Position numbers and translations under genes: made by a program. The notes below the pieces were generated by a model, which made no database searches, was not told the origin of the DNA, and was given only the letters and a program-made list of their open reading frames with translations. From a virus, in the IMG/VR virus record IMGVR_UViG_3300033233_000036, positions 1 through 64,000 of that record: 64,000 bases of DNA. One strand, 5' to 3'. Numbering within the stretch: position 1 is the stretch's first letter; every line of letters begins with the position of its first letter. This document shows positions 1,672 to 38,892 of the stretch, piece by piece.

Positions 1672-2627
1672 AATAGTGATTGAAGTTTGGGGATATATTC
1701 AAATTCTAAAATATTAGCAAGTCCAAAAGTTTTAATTCCATAATCTCTAATATCATTCCTATTCTTTACAGAATATTCTTTATTTTTTTTCAGAACATCT
1801 TTAACATAAGAAAGATCTTCAATCTTATCTTCTGGAATTACATCAATAAAATCTAAACTTGTATCCAATTCCACAGATACTTGCTCAGAAACTACCACAC
1901 CCAATCCACAAATAAGTGACTCTTTAACAACCAGTGGGGTTGTGTTTTCAACAGAACTCAGAAGAGTAAAGTTAGAATACTTAGTGATTTCAGTATTTAA
2001 TTTTTCTCTCAACATTTCCCCTTTGTAGTTTGTTCTATTGATGAACTTTCCATACTCCATTCTACCAATAAAATCAACATTATCAAAATCTTGAATAAGG
2101 TATTGACGTTTTCTATCACAAATTTGAGAGAAAGAAAGTGTGCGATCATATGTTGCATTCTCATCAAATTGATAAGAGTCTGGAAGAACTCCTAACCTAC
2201 TCAACCAACAATGATTTTCATCGGCACCAAAACTCACAAAAGTATCAATATCGTTTTGAGTTGAAGAAAAAATATAAAAATCATCATTCTTAGTATAACT
2301 TTGTACTATCGGATTGTAGTTATCCCTTGCCCACATATCTGGACAATTGATGTATGGATAATGACTTGATACGATTAACTTACCAGAAATTGTATTTAAA
2401 ATTTCTGGGATAATGTCATGAAAGACATCATAATGAAGATGGACAATATCAAATTCTTCTTCCTTCAATTCTTTAATAATTTGAGATCTATCTGGAGTAT
2501 TAATGATTGATCCAGTATGTCCCAGTTCCCCAAGAACTGTTGCATAATCCCAAATCAACATTTCAACAGCACCCCATCCATCAGGAGGAATGGGCATAAT
2601 ACCAGGGCCAATAAATGCAATATTCAT
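1668..2627 (-). CDS. glycosyltransferase, GT4-like, paralog of the downstream gene
   Basis: 319 aa GT-B-type glycosyltransferase. The N-terminus FIGPGIMPIPPDGWGAVEM and the C-terminal segment with GLGVVVSEQVS and DFIDVIPEDKIEDL align with the neighbour at 727-1671, so the two look like a tandem duplication that has diverged. The stop overlaps the start of the downstream gene (ATGA). It probably adds consecutive sugars to the same glycan as its paralog; this is inference from the duplication and operon position. Confidence 0.72.
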   Translation of the reverse strand: MNIAFIGPGIMPIPPDGWGAVEMLIWDYATVLGELGHTGSIINTPDRSQIIKELKEEEFDIVHLHYDVFHDIIPEILNTISGKLIVSSHYPYINCPDMWARDNYNPIVQSYTKNDDFYIFSSTQNDIDTFVSFGADENHCWLSRLGVLPDSYQFDENATYDRTLSFSQICDRKRQYLIQDFDNVDFIGRMEYGKFINRTNYKGEMLREKLNTEITKYSNFTLLSSVENTTPLVVKESLICGLGVVVSEQVSVELDTSLDFIDVIPEDKIEDLSYVKDVLKKNKEYSVKNRNDIRDYGIKTFGLANILEFEYIPKLQSLL

Positions 2628-2636
2628 TTAATTATC

Positions 2637-3446
2637 TTAAGAAAGTTCTGTAAACATATCCATATGCTTACCATTATATCTCCTATATTCGACAAATAGT
2701 TCTGGTTTTGTCTTCAAGAGATATCCTAGTGCAGTTTGTTCGGTATTCACAAGTCCATTATTAATCATTTTATTAATGAGTATATCACCAATTTCACAAT
2801 TTATTTTTTTAACTGCCTCAAGTTCTCCACCAAAAAAAGATCCACAGGTAAATGCTCGAGCATCCCATAAGTATTCTTCTGTTAAGATTTCGGCATTTAC
2901 TAAATCTTGATAGTAATCCATATTCATTTGGAGTAGGAACTTTTCACCCATTTGATCCAATGCATCCAAAGATTCCTGACTTGGAAAATTATTGTTTGTA
3001 TCAAATCCTTCAAAATGTCGAGAAGCACCAGCATCAATCCAGAAAAAATATTTACTATCAAATGGGTTGAGTTCTATTGCCTGATCCAACCATTTAAATT
3101 TTGAATATTGAACCACATTATACATTGGATGATGACACTCAATTCTTTCGGGAGCACCTATTTTACTTTGATATTCATTGGAAGAAATTATTTTTTGAAT
3201 TTCATCCTTTAAGTAGTAATAAGGAATTTCTGAAACAGTATGCGTAATTATTTTTGTTGGATACTCTCTTCTTTTTTCGATAAACTCAACTAAATCATCT
3301 TCACAAAAAACAATCATAGGAGTCTTGAGTTGAAGAGTTTTTTCAAACCACTTCAAATAATCATCCCAAGATCTACCATCATTACCATTCATTCTTTCCC
3401 TTTCAATATTAAAAAGAGAAGTCACTAAACAAAATTTATTTTCCAT
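2637..3446 (-). CDS. HtrL/YibB-like protein (putative glycan enzyme)
   Basis: 270 aa from the ATG giving MENKFCLVTSLFNI; an in-frame ATG four codons upstream (3458) is also possible. The opening LVTSLFNIER, the block SWDDYLKWFEKTLQLKTPMI, the segment FFWIDAGASRHF and a late TCGSFFGG motif match the HtrL/YibB family, which occurs in LPS core and capsule loci and is thought to be a GT-A-like glycosyltransferase. FWIDAG may play the part of a DxD-type metal site. Biochemical function in the family is poorly defined. The family call is from motif recognition only. Confidence 0.7.
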   Translation of the reverse strand: MENKFCLVTSLFNIERERMNGNDGRSWDDYLKWFEKTLQLKTPMIVFCEDDLVEFIEKRREYPTKIITHTVSEIPYYYLKDEIQKIISSNEYQSKIGAPERIECHHPMYNVVQYSKFKWLDQAIELNPFDSKYFFWIDAGASRHFEGFDTNNNFPSQESLDALDQMGEKFLLQMNMDYYQDLVNAEILTEEYLWDARAFTCGSFFGGELEAVKKINCEIGDILINKMINNGLVNTEQTALGYLLKTKPELFVEYRRYNGKHMDMFTELS

Positions 3447-3474
3447 TGTATTGATCATAATATTAGGTAAATTA

Positions 3475-5025
3475 TCAGAATTTAGAAATAATTACCGATG
3501 GAAGTGTATTTTCACATTTGATTCTTTCAATCAAATCATTATCAAATTCTGATGGATCAATCCACCAATCTTCGAATGCAAATTCTTTTCCTTCGTATCC
3601 AGGTTGTTCAACATAAACATTTGAGCAAACTAGAAGATATCCATGAGAATTAAGAATACCTCTCTGAGGTTCTCTATACTTATCACCATAAAGATATCCA
3701 TCGTGCTCAATAGTAATTACTTTAAATCTATATTCATCCAAAGGTAAAATTCTAAGAACATCTAAACTTAGAGTATCAACATCTAGAGAAAGATAATCTA
3801 TACTTTTTGGAAATTCATATTCCTCAAATTGTTTTCTATAATCAACTTCCAAAGCATTCTCATTTAGATGAACTCCATTTTTTCTACTAGAATAACTTTC
3901 ATTATATAAACCATCAAGTTCTACACTAATTGATGTCCAATCATCGTTCTGAAAATAATAACTATTATTTGAAGTGATTGAATGATGGCTACCAATATCT
4001 ACACAATAACCATTTTTTTTAAACTTTAAAATATTTGCAACAAATTGATCTTGTTTTGCATCAGAATTAAATTGTGTCATAATAACTTCGGTTGTTTTTT
4101 CTATAATTTGTTCTAAGATATCTATAAACTTTTCATTCGTCCATAAATTATACTTTTCTTCTAAGGGAGCAAATCCATTTTCAATAATTGATGGTAGAGA
4201 ATTATGCTCCACACAAATGGATGGTTGAACATCCCAAATGTGAGAAAACATATTGCTTTCACAGATTGCTAATGGTCTTTTAACTGAAAGTGCATAATCT
4301 ATTGTAGAAGAAATACCATTATAATAATTATCTGGATACTTTTCATAAAAAAATATATTTAAATCATTCTTATAAAGAAAGTTTAGCATTTCTTCGTCAG
4401 TCAAAAAATCATGAGTCATATTTAATTTAATATTATCATGAGTGATTGCATTTAGACAATCCTGTTTAATTGAATCAATCGTATCCATATTTGGAGAATA
4501 ATGAGATTCTGTTAAATGCAAATTAATTTGAACCTTCCGATCAGGAAATTGCTCATTGACAATTTTACAAATATCATCAATATACTTACATTTAAACCCA
4601 AATCCAAAAGATCCTATATGTAAAGTATCGTCATCCTGTTCTATTTTAGGTGACTGGTAATCAAATAAAGGTCTTGCTAAGGCAAAATTCCTACCATCTA
4701 CATGTGGATGATATGGATTTTGATGCAAATAATAATCAAATCCATCGTAGTGTGAGTTATGAACAATTGTGTATTGTTTTACACCTTGATCCCTACATGT
4801 CTGAATTATTCTACCACTTAACCATGGCATAGTCCCAGCAAGATAATTATAAATTACTGCTTTCGGTTTATGAATTTCATATAGTTTAGAAAATTCTTCT
4901 TCAGAATCTACTTCATAATACATGAAATTATATTTTTCAGATTTGGATGCAATACTTCCAAATCTTTTTCCATACTGATAAACTCCACAATTTTGTACGG
5001 AGTGATTGATAATAAAGACATTCAT
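3475..5025 (-). CDS. glycosyltransferase-like / FkbM-type methyltransferase fusion
   Basis: 516 aa, two parts. Residues about 1-330 resemble a GT-B glycosyltransferase (N-terminus VFIINHSVQNCGVYQYGKR; a late segment with ISSTIDYALSVKRPLAICE). Residues about 335-500 resemble an FkbM-type SAM methyltransferase: GYCVDIGSHHS is the SAM-binding motif I, followed by ISVELDG and by IDYLSLDVDTLSLDVL, the usual FkbM core. FkbM proteins O-methylate sugars, so the protein may add a sugar and cap it by methylation. It starts 6 bases after the upstream gene's stop. The fusion is read through without any frame break. Substrate unknown. Confidence 0.68.
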   Translation of the reverse strand: MNVFIINHSVQNCGVYQYGKRFGSIASKSEKYNFMYYEVDSEEEFSKLYEIHKPKAVIYNYLAGTMPWLSGRIIQTCRDQGVKQYTIVHNSHYDGFDYYLHQNPYHPHVDGRNFALARPLFDYQSPKIEQDDDTLHIGSFGFGFKCKYIDDICKIVNEQFPDRKVQINLHLTESHYSPNMDTIDSIKQDCLNAITHDNIKLNMTHDFLTDEEMLNFLYKNDLNIFFYEKYPDNYYNGISSTIDYALSVKRPLAICESNMFSHIWDVQPSICVEHNSLPSIIENGFAPLEEKYNLWTNEKFIDILEQIIEKTTEVIMTQFNSDAKQDQFVANILKFKKNGYCVDIGSHHSITSNNSYYFQNDDWTSISVELDGLYNESYSSRKNGVHLNENALEVDYRKQFEEYEFPKSIDYLSLDVDTLSLDVLRILPLDEYRFKVITIEHDGYLYGDKYREPQRGILNSHGYLLVCSNVYVEQPGYEGKEFAFEDWWIDPSEFDNDLIERIKCENTLPSVIISKF

Positions 5026-34684: not shown

Positions 34685-35119
34685 TTATTCTTCTTCCACC
34701 CTTTTCTTTTTACCAATATTATATTTGGTTTCAAGAATCCATTCTCCTTTATCTTTAAAAGCAAGAACTTTAATTTGATTGAGTGGTGCAAGATCAGAAA
34801 TTTTTTCAACATTAGGAACTTTTACAAGTCCCCAATCTGCAACCAATTGAATAATACGGTTACGTCTTTGAACATCATTTACAGTAAGATTAGCATATTT
34901 GCCATCCAAAGCAAATAGTTCTTTGAAATGAACAATATAATATCTACCTTGTTTATGAAGAATATGACAAGATTGATATAATTTTTTTTCTTTACGGGAT
35001 GCAACACCAATACGAGTAAGTGTTTCACGAACTTTCAGAAAATCATCTGGTTCATCTAAAATAACTTCCACCATTTGATCTGGTGTCCACTTAACTTCAG
35101 CTTCAATAACAACGCTCAT
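34685..35119 (-). CDS. regA: translational repressor RegA
   Basis: 144 aa. Binds the initiation regions of early mRNAs and blocks translation. Core matches T4 RegA: EPDDFLKVRETLTRIGVAS, LYQSCHILHKQGRYYIVHF, and VADWGLVKV. About 20 residues longer at the N-terminus and Lys/Glu-rich at the C-terminus. It sits below gp62 as in T4 and joins it by ATGA. Confidence 0.95.
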   Translation of the reverse strand: MSVVIEAEVKWTPDQMVEVILDEPDDFLKVRETLTRIGVASRKEKKLYQSCHILHKQGRYYIVHFKELFALDGKYANLTVNDVQRRNRIIQLVADWGLVKVPNVEKISDLAPLNQIKVLAFKDKGEWILETKYNIGKKKRVEEE

Positions 35120-35493
35120 CTTTTTCCTCCAATATCAAGTTTTTGTTTGATACAATCTAGTTGTTCTTTATTTAGGATTCTCAAAGCTTGTTGGGCTTTT
35201 TCTGTACTATAACCATAGTAAGATTTAACTGCATCAAGATCTTTAATTTTATCCTTTCGAAGCCAGGGAGAGAATCTCTTCCTTTTTCTGATAATATTTA
35301 TAAAAAAATCATATTGTAAACGATTTGATAGTAATGAATACTTATTCATCTCATTTGCATACATGATAGTATCAATAAAACTAGAAAGACATCGATTAAT
35401 AATATAAGGAGAATATTCTTTCTCATTACCATCTTCCATAATATATTCTTTTGTATGGTTAATTGAATTTAACCAATCTTTCAATTCAGTCAT
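35116..35493 (-). CDS. gp62: clamp loader small subunit (gp62-like)
   Basis: 125 aa. Partner of gp44 in loading the gp45 clamp. Begins MTELKDWLNSINHTKEYI, with FSPWLRKDKIKDLDAVKSYYGYS as the most conserved part; this matches cyanophage gp62, which is shorter than T4's. ATGA overlaps at both ends place it between RegA and a 47 aa gene. Confidence 0.9.
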   Translation of the reverse strand: MTELKDWLNSINHTKEYIMEDGNEKEYSPYIINRCLSSFIDTIMYANEMNKYSLLSNRLQYDFFINIIRKRKRFSPWLRKDKIKDLDAVKSYYGYSTEKAQQALRILNKEQLDCIKQKLDIGGKR

Positions 35494-35633
35494 TTAAATA
35501 CAGCGGTGACACTAACAACTTTAGCACCAGGATTTCTGGCTAATGCAACATCTTTTGCATCTTGATAATCTCTGGCAATCACTTCTTCTTTAAAGACAGT
35601 TCCCGCCTTGAATAAAGTTACTTCACATTTCAT
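35490..35633 (-). CDS. small conserved phage protein
   Basis: 47 aa: MKCEVTLFKAGTVFKEEVIA, then DYQDAKDVALARNPGAKVV. The second half has an 'RDYQDAKxxALARNPGA' run that I know from cyanophage genomes near gp62. Beta-alpha-beta-like, no known function. It is linked to both neighbours by ATGA overlaps. Confidence 0.75.
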   Translation of the reverse strand: MKCEVTLFKAGTVFKEEVIARDYQDAKDVALARNPGAKVVSVTAVFK

Positions 35634-36763
35634 CGGATAATATCAATCTCCATATCTTTAGTCCATACTTCAAGTTCAGTTCTAAGTCTACCTTCAGACT
35701 TTAAAGATTCATAACGAGTAGAAGCTTTGTTCTTCCACCAGTTAATTAGATTTTCACTATGAAATTTATCAAAATTCTGGGAATTTTTAATCAAGATATC
35801 AGTCTCCCCATTTATAACTTCTCTTACGTTTGAAAAACCATAGTCAGACATATAGAACCTCTTCTTCTGAGTCAAATCCTTTGCCGATTGAATTGAAGAG
35901 TTGAAACTTGAAAGTTTGTCTGATAGTTGTGGATATTCCTTTAAAGATGCACGAATAATTGATATCATTTTCTGTTGGATCTTCAGTTTCCGACTAGAAG
36001 CATCTTCTTTGACAAGAAGTTTATCTCCATTACGAGACTTAAACCACTTATTTAAATCCCCAAAAACAGAATCATGAATCAACGGAGTGAAATCACTTTC
36101 AGTCAATCCACGATACCTCATATAAGGTTTTAACCCATCATACTGAGATGATGACTTGGTTGATCCATAAAGAGATGTTGTTTCAAACAAACAAATATCT
36201 GCATCGTATTTTGCATTAAGTTGTTCCCTAGCTTCATGAGAAGAACAAAGAAGTGCAAGTAGTTTACCTCCCAAATAGTTAAATCCGAAAGGTTGAGTAG
36301 GAACAATAATGAATCCCATGATTGCATGTCGGTTAAACCGAGTTAAATCTGGCACCGATCCAAGCCAATCATTTCTAGGTTTAGAATTAATTGTAGGAGA
36401 ACCAAATCGAATAAAACCAACAATCTTTTTACTGTTAGTTTCCATGACAATCCATTTCAATGACTTACCAGGAATACTATTCTCAATTGCATGAGAAGTT
36501 GTTACCTGCAATCTTTCATTGAAGAACTCATTTGTAAATCCACCCTTCTCCCCAGCACAGTAGATCTTAAAATTCATCTCACTTGGATGCATATCAAAAT
36601 TACAGAACATATCATCTTCTGGGCCCAATCCCAGAAGAGATGTCATTCCTTTAACACGATCTAGTTTGATATTACGAAGATATTCATCAATTCTCCCCAA
36701 GTTGGAAAAATAATCAATAAATTTATCTGCAGCATAAATTGCATCAAGTGTATCTAAAATCAT
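35630..36763 (-). CDS. DUF4338/DruA-like protein in the clamp-loader operon
   Basis: 377 aa. Residues about 112-225 show KIVGFIRFGSP, RFNRHAIMGFIIVPTQPFG, then LLALLCSSHEARE, ICLFETTSLYG and GLKPYMRYRGLTES. This layout (a GNAT-like fold with 'RFLIhP' and 'ETxxxxG' landmarks) resembles DUF4338, the domain of DruA of the Druantia defence systems, and I place it there with moderate confidence. The C-terminal 140 residues are charged and helical. It is not a standard member of the gp44-gp62 operon. ATGA overlaps link it to both neighbours. Another GNAT-like modifying enzyme is the main alternative. Confidence 0.55.
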   Translation of the reverse strand: MILDTLDAIYAADKFIDYFSNLGRIDEYLRNIKLDRVKGMTSLLGLGPEDDMFCNFDMHPSEMNFKIYCAGEKGGFTNEFFNERLQVTTSHAIENSIPGKSLKWIVMETNSKKIVGFIRFGSPTINSKPRNDWLGSVPDLTRFNRHAIMGFIIVPTQPFGFNYLGGKLLALLCSSHEAREQLNAKYDADICLFETTSLYGSTKSSSQYDGLKPYMRYRGLTESDFTPLIHDSVFGDLNKWFKSRNGDKLLVKEDASSRKLKIQQKMISIIRASLKEYPQLSDKLSSFNSSIQSAKDLTQKKRFYMSDYGFSNVREVINGETDILIKNSQNFDKFHSENLINWWKNKASTRYESLKSEGRLRTELEVWTKDMEIDIIR

Positions 36764-37335
36764 ACAAAATGTTTATCCAATATTCCATAGTTTACCATAA
36801 TTTCTGATGAATATGAATTTGGATTCCTACCCTTTCCATCTACTTCCATATTCATAAGTGGAGATTTATCAAATTTTCTTTGATACTGATAGATCTCATA
36901 ATGTTCTCTACTGATCAACCAAGATTTCAAACAATGATCAGGATCTTCTTTTGGTGGACAAATAAAACCAACCCATAATGAAATTCCAGTAAGAGTTCCA
37001 TTTAATACATCATCTCCAAATCCATATTTTTCTGTAAAGAGTTTATATTTTTTTTCTTCGTTTACAACTGGTACTCCAGTAGTCAAAGGTTTGTGATGTT
37101 GAGTCATTCTCTTATGAAGATGAGTTCTCAACTTGCCTTTATGTCCATTTTGTTTGTCATAGTAAAATCCACCAGATTGGCCAATATAAACACAACCTTC
37201 AAAATCGGATGGACAATCAGATGACTTTGGCATCATATTATTCCAAACAAAACCATAGACAGCACCTCGCATCCCAATAATATCAGCAAGTTTATGATAT
37301 TCTGTAAAACGGATCCAATGAACGTAAGGTATCAT
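36760..37335 (-). CDS. GIY-YIG-like domain protein
   Basis: 191 aa. RGAVYGFVW (about 23-31) and CVYIGQSGG (about 48-56) form the two strands of a GIY-YIG nuclease core, followed by LRTHLHKRMTQHH with the usual Arg and His. A conserved Glu could be in SREHYEIYQ. The domain is clear but the active residues are not all certain. It lies between gp44 and the DruA-like gene and overlaps both by ATGA. Either a homing-type nuclease in the operon strand or the nuclease half of a two-gene module. Confidence 0.65.
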   Translation of the reverse strand: MIPYVHWIRFTEYHKLADIIGMRGAVYGFVWNNMMPKSSDCPSDFEGCVYIGQSGGFYYDKQNGHKGKLRTHLHKRMTQHHKPLTTGVPVVNEEKKYKLFTEKYGFGDDVLNGTLTGISLWVGFICPPKEDPDHCLKSWLISREHYEIYQYQRKFDKSPLMNMEVDGKGRNPNSYSSEIMVNYGILDKHFV

Positions 37336-38285
37336 TTGAATTCACACTCCATCATAATTTCTGTCAGTGCTGCTAGGAGGTTAATTTCTTGATCAACCAC
37401 GAACGCAATTTGGTATTGATACTTAGCAATAATAAGAACGGCAGCGGGGATAGTTGCGGGTGAAAGACAAGTATAACAGGCGTCATAAATCCTGCGAAGA
37501 ATGACAGAAGAATCGTTGTCCAAGTTGGCAACCACCCACTTTCGGACTTCAGTAAAGTTTTTATCTTTGAGGTAATTGATGAGATCATTTATTGCAATGT
37601 CTGAGAAAGATGCAAGAATTCCCGAGTCAATCTCCCCTCCCACTGCATATCTTTGACATTCATTGAGAACACGCCTCCAGTCTGGAAAGTGTTTGTTGAT
37701 AATCTCAGCGAGAACCTTCTGATCATATTTAACACCTTCGAGATCCAAGATATTTTGAAGTCGTTGGAAAAAACTTCCTGCAATTTGAACTTTTTCCTTT
37801 CCTTTGATTGAGAAGTCAATGACAGCACATCGGGAGTGGAGTGGTTCAATAATTTTGTTTTTATAGTTACAAGTGAAGATGAATCTACAGTTGTTATAAA
37901 ACGTCTCAATATTAGCCCGTAGAAGGAGTTGAACATCATTCGTTGTGTTGTCAGCTTCATCAATGATGATGACTTTATGTTTACCAAGTCCTTGAAGTGA
38001 TACGGTCGAAGCAAAGTTCTTTGCATGGTTCCGTACCGTGTCCAGAAATCGTCCTTCGTCAGACCCGTTGATGACATAACTATCTACTCCCAATTCATTG
38101 CATAGTGCCTTAGCAACTGTTGTTTTACCAATACCAGGAGGCCCAGAAAGTAGGAGATTTGGAATATTCCCCTTTTCTACAAACTCTTTTAAACTTTTCT
38201 TAATACTATCAGGAAGAATACAATCATCAATTTTATGAGGACGATATTTCTCCGTCCAAATAAAGTCGGTTCTGTCTGTTTTCAT
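37332..38285 (-). CDS. gp44: clamp loader AAA+ subunit (gp44-like)
   Basis: 317 aa from the ATG giving MKTDRTDFIWTEKYRPHKI. ATPase that opens the gp45 ring. Walker A GPPGIGKT at 48-55, Walker B IIIDEAD near 107-113, Arg-finger region LHSRCAVID. The frame is open further upstream, but this start aligns with family members. It ends with an ATGA overlap into the GIY-YIG gene. Its start is 35 bases from the divergent homing endonuclease. Confidence 0.95.
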   Translation of the reverse strand: MKTDRTDFIWTEKYRPHKIDDCILPDSIKKSLKEFVEKGNIPNLLLSGPPGIGKTTVAKALCNELGVDSYVINGSDEGRFLDTVRNHAKNFASTVSLQGLGKHKVIIIDEADNTTNDVQLLLRANIETFYNNCRFIFTCNYKNKIIEPLHSRCAVIDFSIKGKEKVQIAGSFFQRLQNILDLEGVKYDQKVLAEIINKHFPDWRRVLNECQRYAVGGEIDSGILASFSDIAINDLINYLKDKNFTEVRKWVVANLDNDSSVILRRIYDACYTCLSPATIPAAVLIIAKYQYQIAFVVDQEINLLAALTEIMMECEFK

Positions 38286-38319: not shown

Positions 38320-38892
38320 ATGCTTATATACAAGATAGTCAATCAGATTAATGGTGATTTTTATATTGGAAAAACAACCAAACCAAAAGAAGTTAGATTA
38401 AAAGAGCATTTTTATAGTTCTTCTTATAACTCACAAACTCACCTCCATAGAGCCATAAGGAAATATGGAGAAACAAATTTTATCATAGATGAAATTGAAA
38501 ATCTATTACCAGAAGATATGTTAGATGAAAGAGAAATATATTGGATTGAAAAGTTAAATCCTTCATACAATATGACTGCTGGCGGAGAAGGTGGAAAAAC
38601 ACATCATTCACCAAATTTTATCAAAGCAATGAAAGAATATCACAACAAGAAACCAAAAGAAGAATATGCTACTTATGGTATGAAGGGGAAAAAATTTCCA
38701 GAAGAATCAAAGAAAAAAGTTAGCAAAGCAAATTCATATCCAATTGTTTGTGAGGGAAAGGAATTTTTATCAATTAAAGCAGCAGAAGAGTATTATAAAA
38801 ATTTAGGAACACCAAAATCAGTTAGAAAAAGAATTGATAACCCCAAACACACTGATTGGTATAGAATTAGGAGTAAAAGAAATTACGCATAA
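38320..38892 (+). CDS. GIY-YIG homing endonuclease (Seg-like)
   Basis: 190 aa; the only plus-strand gene in the window. LIYKIVNQINGDFYIGKTT (2-20) is a textbook GIY-YIG start, followed by RLKEHF with the catalytic Arg, the HLHRAIRKYGETNF block, and LDEREIYWIEKL with the conserved Glu. Then a short zinc/NUMOD-type region (PIVCEGKEFLSIKAAEEYY), a modular DNA-binding helix. Inserted between gp45 and gp44, opposite in strand, as free-standing homing genes often are. Confidence 0.9.
   Translation: MLIYKIVNQINGDFYIGKTTKPKEVRLKEHFYSSSYNSQTHLHRAIRKYGETNFIIDEIENLLPEDMLDEREIYWIEKLNPSYNMTAGGEGGKTHHSPNFIKAMKEYHNKKPKEEYATYGMKGKKFPEESKKKVSKANSYPIVCEGKEFLSIKAAEEYYKNLGTPKSVRKRIDNPKHTDWYRIRSKRNYA

Follow-up and report, generated by a model that had tools for sequence, protein, structure and literature searches.

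At two separate operon sites in T4-like marine phages, a gene for a DruA-like (DUF4338) protein and genes for DNA methyltransferases replace each other repeatedly, for which the simplest reason is that the two kinds of protein share one job. At the locus considered here, the DruA-like gene lies within the clamp-loader operon of a T4-like cyanophage, beside a gene for a GIY-YIG-like protein. Our best explanation, which we hold to be evenly balanced between right and wrong, is that the DruA-like GNAT protein would modify phage DNA bases in place of a methyltransferase and that the GIY-YIG-like protein would cut DNA lacking the mark, the two forming a cassette that resembles a restriction-modification (R-M) system.

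Genes of the clamp-loader operon

The DNA analyzed (the window) is a 64 kb stretch of a 68 kb IMG/VR virus fragment. The order of genes on its minus strand is gp45, gp44, the 191 aa gene, the 377 aa gene, a 47 aa gene, gp62 and regA, with the following features:

37332..38285, minus strand: gp44, clamp-loader large subunit (phrog_168, E 1.9e-134), the upstream border of the slot
36760..37335, minus strand: GIY-YIG-like nuclease (P0003), 191 aa, predicted to be of restriction type from motif order and predicted topology
35630..36763, minus strand: DruA-like (DUF4338) GNAT-fold protein (P0002), 377 aa, predicted to modify DNA (PF14236, phrog_19197)
35490..35633, minus strand: 47 aa protein of phrog_685 (E 3e-30), with ATGA overlaps on both sides
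35116..35493, minus strand: gp62, clamp-loader small subunit (PF16790, E 6.9e-12), the downstream border of the slot
34685..35119, minus strand: regA translational repressor (PF01818, E 3.4e-43), the next gene of the operon
38320..38892, plus strand: Seg-like canonical GIY-YIG homing gene (PF01541, E 6e-8, and homing PHROGs), between gp45 and gp44

Both accessory genes are real and intact, and all junctions from gp44 through the 191 aa, 377 aa, 47 aa and gp62 genes to regA are 4-base ATGA overlaps, which confirms the placement of the two genes as operon members in an earlier, sequence-only reading of the window. That reading had also taken the overlaps as a special sign of translational coupling, but the ORF list holds ATGA overlaps at no fewer than 8 further junctions of the window, and since this style is common there, the overlaps are a sign of operon membership and not of any special coupling. 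The 191 aa and 377 aa genes had been correctly named as accessory genes between gp44 and gp62, though the third, of 47 aa, had been missed, and the premise that gp44 and gp62 are usually neighbors fails in cyanophages, where just 6 of 67 complete spacers hold nothing or almost nothing. The dN/dS ratio is ~0.09 for the 191 aa gene and 0.04–0.06 for the 377 aa gene, values that indicate strong purifying selection and therefore that both encode maintained proteins. No Dam or C5-methyltransferase gene was found elsewhere in the 64 kb window. A relative of the plus-strand homing gene is located directly before gp44 in two other loci (L131 and L227).

Sequence and predicted fold of the DruA-like protein

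The DruA profile PF14236 matches the 377 aa protein with an E value of 1.2e-10 and 41.5 bits, above the curated cut-off of 27, in a partial alignment of residues 96–197 with positions 78–180 of the 297-position profile, and phrog_19197 covers the full length of the protein (E 1.3e-189). These profile matches establish the 377 aa protein as a genuine relative of DUF4338/DruA proteins, and its AlphaFold model (mean pLDDT 86) has a predicted GNAT-like fold. DUF4338 has been named a GNAT domain (PMC10853773). Conserved positions of the 377 aa protein include N162 and G165/G166. In the PDB, the top structural matches of the model are nearly all GNAT acyltransferases, with a best probability of 0.99 at E values of only 0.002–0.1, and in BFVD the model matches Mom of Salmonella phage FSL SP-031 (E 1.2e-3, probability 1.00, target TM 0.53); at the level of sequence, no link to Mom was found. 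A sequence search of solved structures gave no relative for either the 377 aa or the 191 aa protein. The DruA-like and GNAT assignments of the earlier reading therefore stand, with a family match above cut-off and a GNAT-like fold in the model. Folds of the DruA-like kind occur in giant viruses too, as the best BFVD matches are uncharacterized proteins of such viruses (Faunusvirus, E 1e-15; Yasminevirus; Dasosvirus).

A DruA-like gene is present in 31 phage records, nearly all of them of Synechococcus phages, and its usual place is between gp44 and gp62, whereas Pelagibacter phage HTVC008M has it after gp43. The isolates with the gene that can be grown on laboratory strains of Synechococcus include S-PRM1, S-SM2, S-SSM7, S-T4 and S-SCSM2R. 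Family members are annotated as "putative cytoplasmic protein" or "methylcarbamoylase mom". One locus (L178) has two nearby DruA-like genes, at 1457–2584 and 2621–3997, the second encoding a 458 aa protein of the Pelagibacter phage Mosig type. The Phold paper reports DruA-like proteins in six Synechococcus phages including S-PRM1 (PMC12774648); these belong to the same family as the 377 aa protein, and the S-PRM1 copy, 63% identical, is found at the same locus. Unlike the present analysis, the accessible text of that report gives no function, nuclease partner or methyltransferase exchange.

Exchange of the DruA-like gene with DNA methyltransferases

In a bias-free sample of loci chosen by gp44 alone, the 67 complete gp44–gp62 spacers contain Dam in 42 cases, a DruA-like gene in 14, neither in 11 and both in none, so that a modification gene is present in 84% of spacers. 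The probability of finding no spacer with both under independence is 4.6e-8, a figure that overstates independence because the sample includes related phages. The full set of 183 complete spacers collected gives the same pattern, with 123 containing a DruA-like gene, 44 Dam, 16 neither and none both. Since the samples include related phages, a count of switches on a tree is sturdier than the P values, and on a gp44 tree of 102 non-redundant proteins there are at least 11 switches between Dam and the DruA-like gene; four gp44 clusters (≥95% identity) mix Dam phages with DruA phages. Dam of T4-like cyanophages (PF02086) thus shares with the DruA-like gene the operon slot directly before gp62, each being the last gene, or the last save the 47 aa gene, in nearly all spacers, and the two are mutually exclusive, although unrelated in fold and chemistry. 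Several cyanophage Dam genes (D12, N6-adenine) bear the annotation of a cytosine-specific methyltransferase.

In a different T4-like group, sampled through gp43 as the anchor, the gp43–uvsX region contains a DruA-like gene in 10 cases, a C5-methyltransferase in 22 and Dam in 5, and a DruA-like gene never occurs together with a methyltransferase (P 8e-6, a significance inflated by kinship among the phages). Complete genomes with a DruA-like gene contain Dam in 1 of 13 cases and a C5-methyltransferase in 0 of 13. With ~460 cyano-, pelagi- and marine-phage records carrying this gp44 as the reference, Dam is found in 421 records of phage isolates and the DruA-like gene in 31. The exchange also suggests, for nearly all T4-like cyanophages, a single DNA-modification gene per phage, in most cases sited in the replication operon: usually Dam, otherwise the DruA-like gene.

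One could instead suppose that the targets of the DruA-like GNAT are host proteins, for example RNA polymerase, which it would acylate, and that the exchange with Dam reflects only a crowded insertion hotspot. GNAT substrates are many, the PDB matches of the model are generic GNAT proteins, several unrelated small genes share the spacers, and the Rac GNAT of phiKMV-like phages is reported to acylate RNA polymerase (PMC7824862). However, the DruA-like gene has zero co-occurrence with methyltransferases at two sites, whereas both it and Dam occur freely alongside further genes of the spacers, p98 among them; 12 of the 13 complete DruA-like genomes have no Dam at all, inside the slot or outside it; and the structural match is to Mom. 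We therefore consider protein acylation rather improbable. Base modification by the DruA-like protein is suggested by three features in combination: its exchange with methyltransferases, its GNAT fold and its structural likeness to Mom. No statement of the biochemical role of DruA appears in the literature we found, and the way the DruA-like gene and DNA methyltransferase genes repeatedly stand in for one another at two sites offers a testable hypothesis, namely that the DruA domain modifies DNA bases.

Motif and predicted topology of the 191 aa protein

The 191 aa protein is called GIY-YIG from its motif and predicted topology, which is short of proven homology. Residues Y27, Y50, G52, R76, H80, E144 and N162 are invariant in 24 relatives and follow the GIY-YIG order (Y50-I-G52 in this protein). 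In the model (pLDDT 86.5), the predicted order is strand (GIY), strand (YIG), helix (R and H), helix, strand, helix (E), and the β-β-α-α-β-α order is that of the GIY-YIG topology. The six catalytic residues of the type II enzyme R.Eco29kI are Y49, Y76, R104, H108, E142 and N154 (PMC1952068), and the residues of the 191 aa protein occur in the same order, including R-x3-H, with an Arg-to-His spacing of four in both. Among the matches listed by Foldseek in the PDB, R.Eco29kI (3mx4) is alone in having a TM score above 0.2, at rank 39 with an E value of 3.7 and TMq of 0.33. Pfam, PHROGs, NCBIfam and PADLOC returned no GIY-YIG assignment for the protein, and none of the 24 family members has a Pfam GIY-YIG match. 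An hhalign comparison of the nuclease with Eco29kI relatives or with homing GIY-YIG enzymes was not significant, in a setting where the control comparison of the Eco29kI-relative and homing GIY-YIG profiles gave E 0.0014; this missing profile link argues against the cassette. No bacterial relatives of the nuclease were found in the genome contigs or plasmids searched. The GIY-YIG-like label given by the earlier reading is thus borne out by motif and predicted topology and not by profile and fold searches.

The R.Eco29kI/M.Eco29kI system is a useful comparator for gene order as well, as the eco29kI R and M genes overlap on pECO29, just as the nuclease and putative modification genes do here. 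It differs in that the putative modifier at the present locus is a DruA-like GNAT protein in place of a methyltransferase, and in that the profile similarity of the nucleases is not significant.

Known and putative modification genes adjoining the GIY-YIG gene

Of 44 loci containing the GIY-YIG gene and enough flanking DNA to be informative, 39 have it adjoining exactly one modification gene, as would be expected of a type II R-M nuclease gene. The partner is DruA-like in 29, Dam in 9 and a C5-methyltransferase in 1, never two together, so that 10 loci have a true methyltransferase. Pfam places the methyltransferases clearly in their families (PF02086, E 1e-29 to 1e-32; PF00145, E 4e-55). The pairs often have a 4-base overlap and occur in either order at several genome sites. 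In addition to gp44-GIY-DruA-gp62 in the window, the arrangements are gp43-DruA-GIY-uvsX (L118, L119, L121), gp43-GIY-DruA (L120), DruA-GIY at another site (L128), gp43-GIY-Dam (L122–L125), Dam-GIY (L133), gp43-GIY-C5-methyltransferase (L127) and gp44-GIY-Dam-gp62 (L129, L131, L230). As it adjoins whichever modification enzyme is present, the GIY-YIG-like protein looks like the restriction half of a system, although within the gp44–gp62 spacer such a neighbor is partly explained by location, given the share of spacers that hold a modification gene. The remaining 5 informative loci have no recognized modification gene near. In two loci (L117:679-2535 and L126), 2OG-Fe(II) oxygenase-like genes come after the GIY-YIG gene, in the place of a methyltransferase or DruA-like gene.

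The adjacency does not amount to a fixed pair. Only 1 of 13 complete DruA-like genomes (S-SCSM2R) has the nuclease gene, and it is found in 1 of 67 gp44-anchored spacers. Its absence extends to the closest DruA-like relatives (90–94% identical; DSL-LC02 and metagenome contigs), among them DSL-LC02, the closest relative, whose DruA-like gene is 93% identical; in nearly all of these, gp44 overlaps the DruA-like gene directly. A strict pair hypothesis was rejected, and with it the earlier claim that the two genes travel as one unit, since most DruA-like genes are without the nuclease and the nuclease also pairs with Dam and C5-methyltransferases. Independent scattering of the two genes is likewise not what we found, as away from the slot, at gp43–uvsX and other sites, they remain side by side, in either order. 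Since a GIY-YIG neighbor is missing from the majority of DruA-like and Dam genes, modification would in most cases be an orphan function.

An important consideration is whether the 191 aa protein is instead a free-standing homing endonuclease in an accessory slot, unrelated to the DruA-like gene, which may then modify DNA by itself. The slot admits many nuclease folds: next to DruA-like genes and Dam, spacers take in Endonuclease VII (PF02945) and PD-(D/E)XK-like nucleases as well as HNH-like nucleases and a LAGLIDADG-like one (both of these kinds recognized solely by sequence motifs), and some of these are probably homing genes. A canonical Seg-like GIY-YIG homing gene is next door at 38320–38892, and close relatives differ in whether the nuclease gene is present at the gp44–DruA junction, the gene being precisely absent where gp44 overlaps the DruA-like gene. 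Yet the 191 aa gene has the orientation of the operon and frame overlaps on both sides, unlike its plus-strand homing neighbor; the protein has no recognizable extra DNA-binding domain; its dN/dS is low; and its family adjoins a modification gene at other genome sites too, in either order. A first view of it as a mere homing gene was weakened by these Dam, C5-methyltransferase and DruA-like neighbors, and we now regard the homing explanation as unlikely, if still a serious contender.

Alternatively, the same chemistry could serve the breakdown of the host chromosome for nucleotide recycling, with rivals not the target. T4 endonuclease II (DenA), a GIY-YIG enzyme, spares modified phage DNA, and at the present locus the operon shared with replication genes, the GIY-YIG fold and a mark that would shield the phage genome are all consistent with recycling. 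Against this purpose, the nuclease is rare in the group even though nucleotides are needed by all these phages, and we give it only a small chance of being correct.

Proposed function and relation to known systems

In the R-M-like explanation that we prefer, the DruA-like GNAT-fold enzyme would mark bases of phage DNA as it replicates, in the way that Mom marks adenine, by adding an acyl-type or related group, and would thereby do the job of the Dam or C5 methyltransferase of most related phages. The 191 aa GIY-YIG nuclease, of restriction type, would cut DNA without the mark, whether host chromosome, rival phage DNA or both, and the marked phage genome would be spared. The position of the pair in the clamp-loader operon would let modification be co-expressed with replication. 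As most DruA-like and Dam phages have no such nuclease, the mark would also need a use of its own, of which protection from host restriction may be an example. In this scheme we infer that the DruA-like protein modifies bases, that the nuclease cuts and that the mark protects; direct support exists for the predicted folds, for the repeated gene exchange at two sites and for the position of the nuclease gene next to a single modification gene. A DNA-modification or exclusion module had been among the guesses of the sequence-only reading and agrees with this scheme.

A close functional analogy is with Mom of phage Mu and the Mom-REase fusions of jumbo phages, which are predicted to protect phage DNA and to attack host or superinfecting DNA (PMC7824862). 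The likeness is that DNA modification by a GNAT-fold protein is combined with a nuclease whose predicted target is unmodified DNA; here, by contrast, a GNAT protein of the DUF4338 family goes with a GIY-YIG-like nuclease that has a gene of its own, and the pair is in the clamp-loader operon. Cyanophages are already known to carry DruA-like genes and Dam, and combinations of Mom with a nuclease are known as well. An earlier judgment that the module was not described so far therefore misses the DruA-like proteins of Synechococcus phages (PMC12774648). For the repeated exchange of DruA-like genes with Dam or C5-methyltransferase genes, no earlier description was found in the literature searched. 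The same search found no description of a GIY-YIG partner common to the three.

With Druantia type I (DruA–E), the locus has the DUF4338 domain in common and differs from it in operon, length and slot, with no DruB–E in the window. It is highly improbable that the gene is a phage-borne Druantia fragment that excludes other phages. PADLOC DruA gives partial matches to the 377 aa protein (E 1.5e-6), and similarity to the DruA fold has been reported for S-PRM1 (PMC12774648); but the window contains no second Druantia gene, its largest ORF being gp43 at 860 aa, and the gene is part of a replication operon and substitutes for a methyltransferase. Membership in Druantia was rejected, as the large DruE helicase is absent from the window and the neighbors are replication genes, and the link to Druantia defense drawn in the earlier reading reduces to domain homology. 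A wider hypothesis, possible though somewhat doubtful, is that DruA-type (DUF4338) proteins are base-modifying acyltransferases that in T4-like marine phages replace Dam and C5-methyltransferases and form R-M cassettes with a non-methyl mark and interchangeable nucleases (GIY-YIG, PD-(D/E)XK-like and others), in which case the same base-modifying activity could underlie DruA of Druantia defense.

Other gene families near the modification genes

Six loci (L222, L253, L257, L258, L263 and L266) contain genes of 172–189 aa with no Pfam match and a "..VDNLYYESKGK.." stretch, directly upstream of Dam in five and of a DruA-like gene in one. This family is possibly another restriction-type nuclease common to both modifiers. 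A family of 191–206 aa (L110, L235, L246, L256 and L276) is immediately upstream of the DruA-like gene in 5 of 5 cases, all in gp44–gp62 spacers. Finally, downstream of gp43 in seven loci (L331, L332, L343, L344, L349, L351 and L363) are cassettes of a ParB/DGQHR-like protein, a PP-loop ATPase (~281 aa, with the motif "LSGGVDS") and a C5-methyltransferase, which by their sequences look like a further DNA-modification module.
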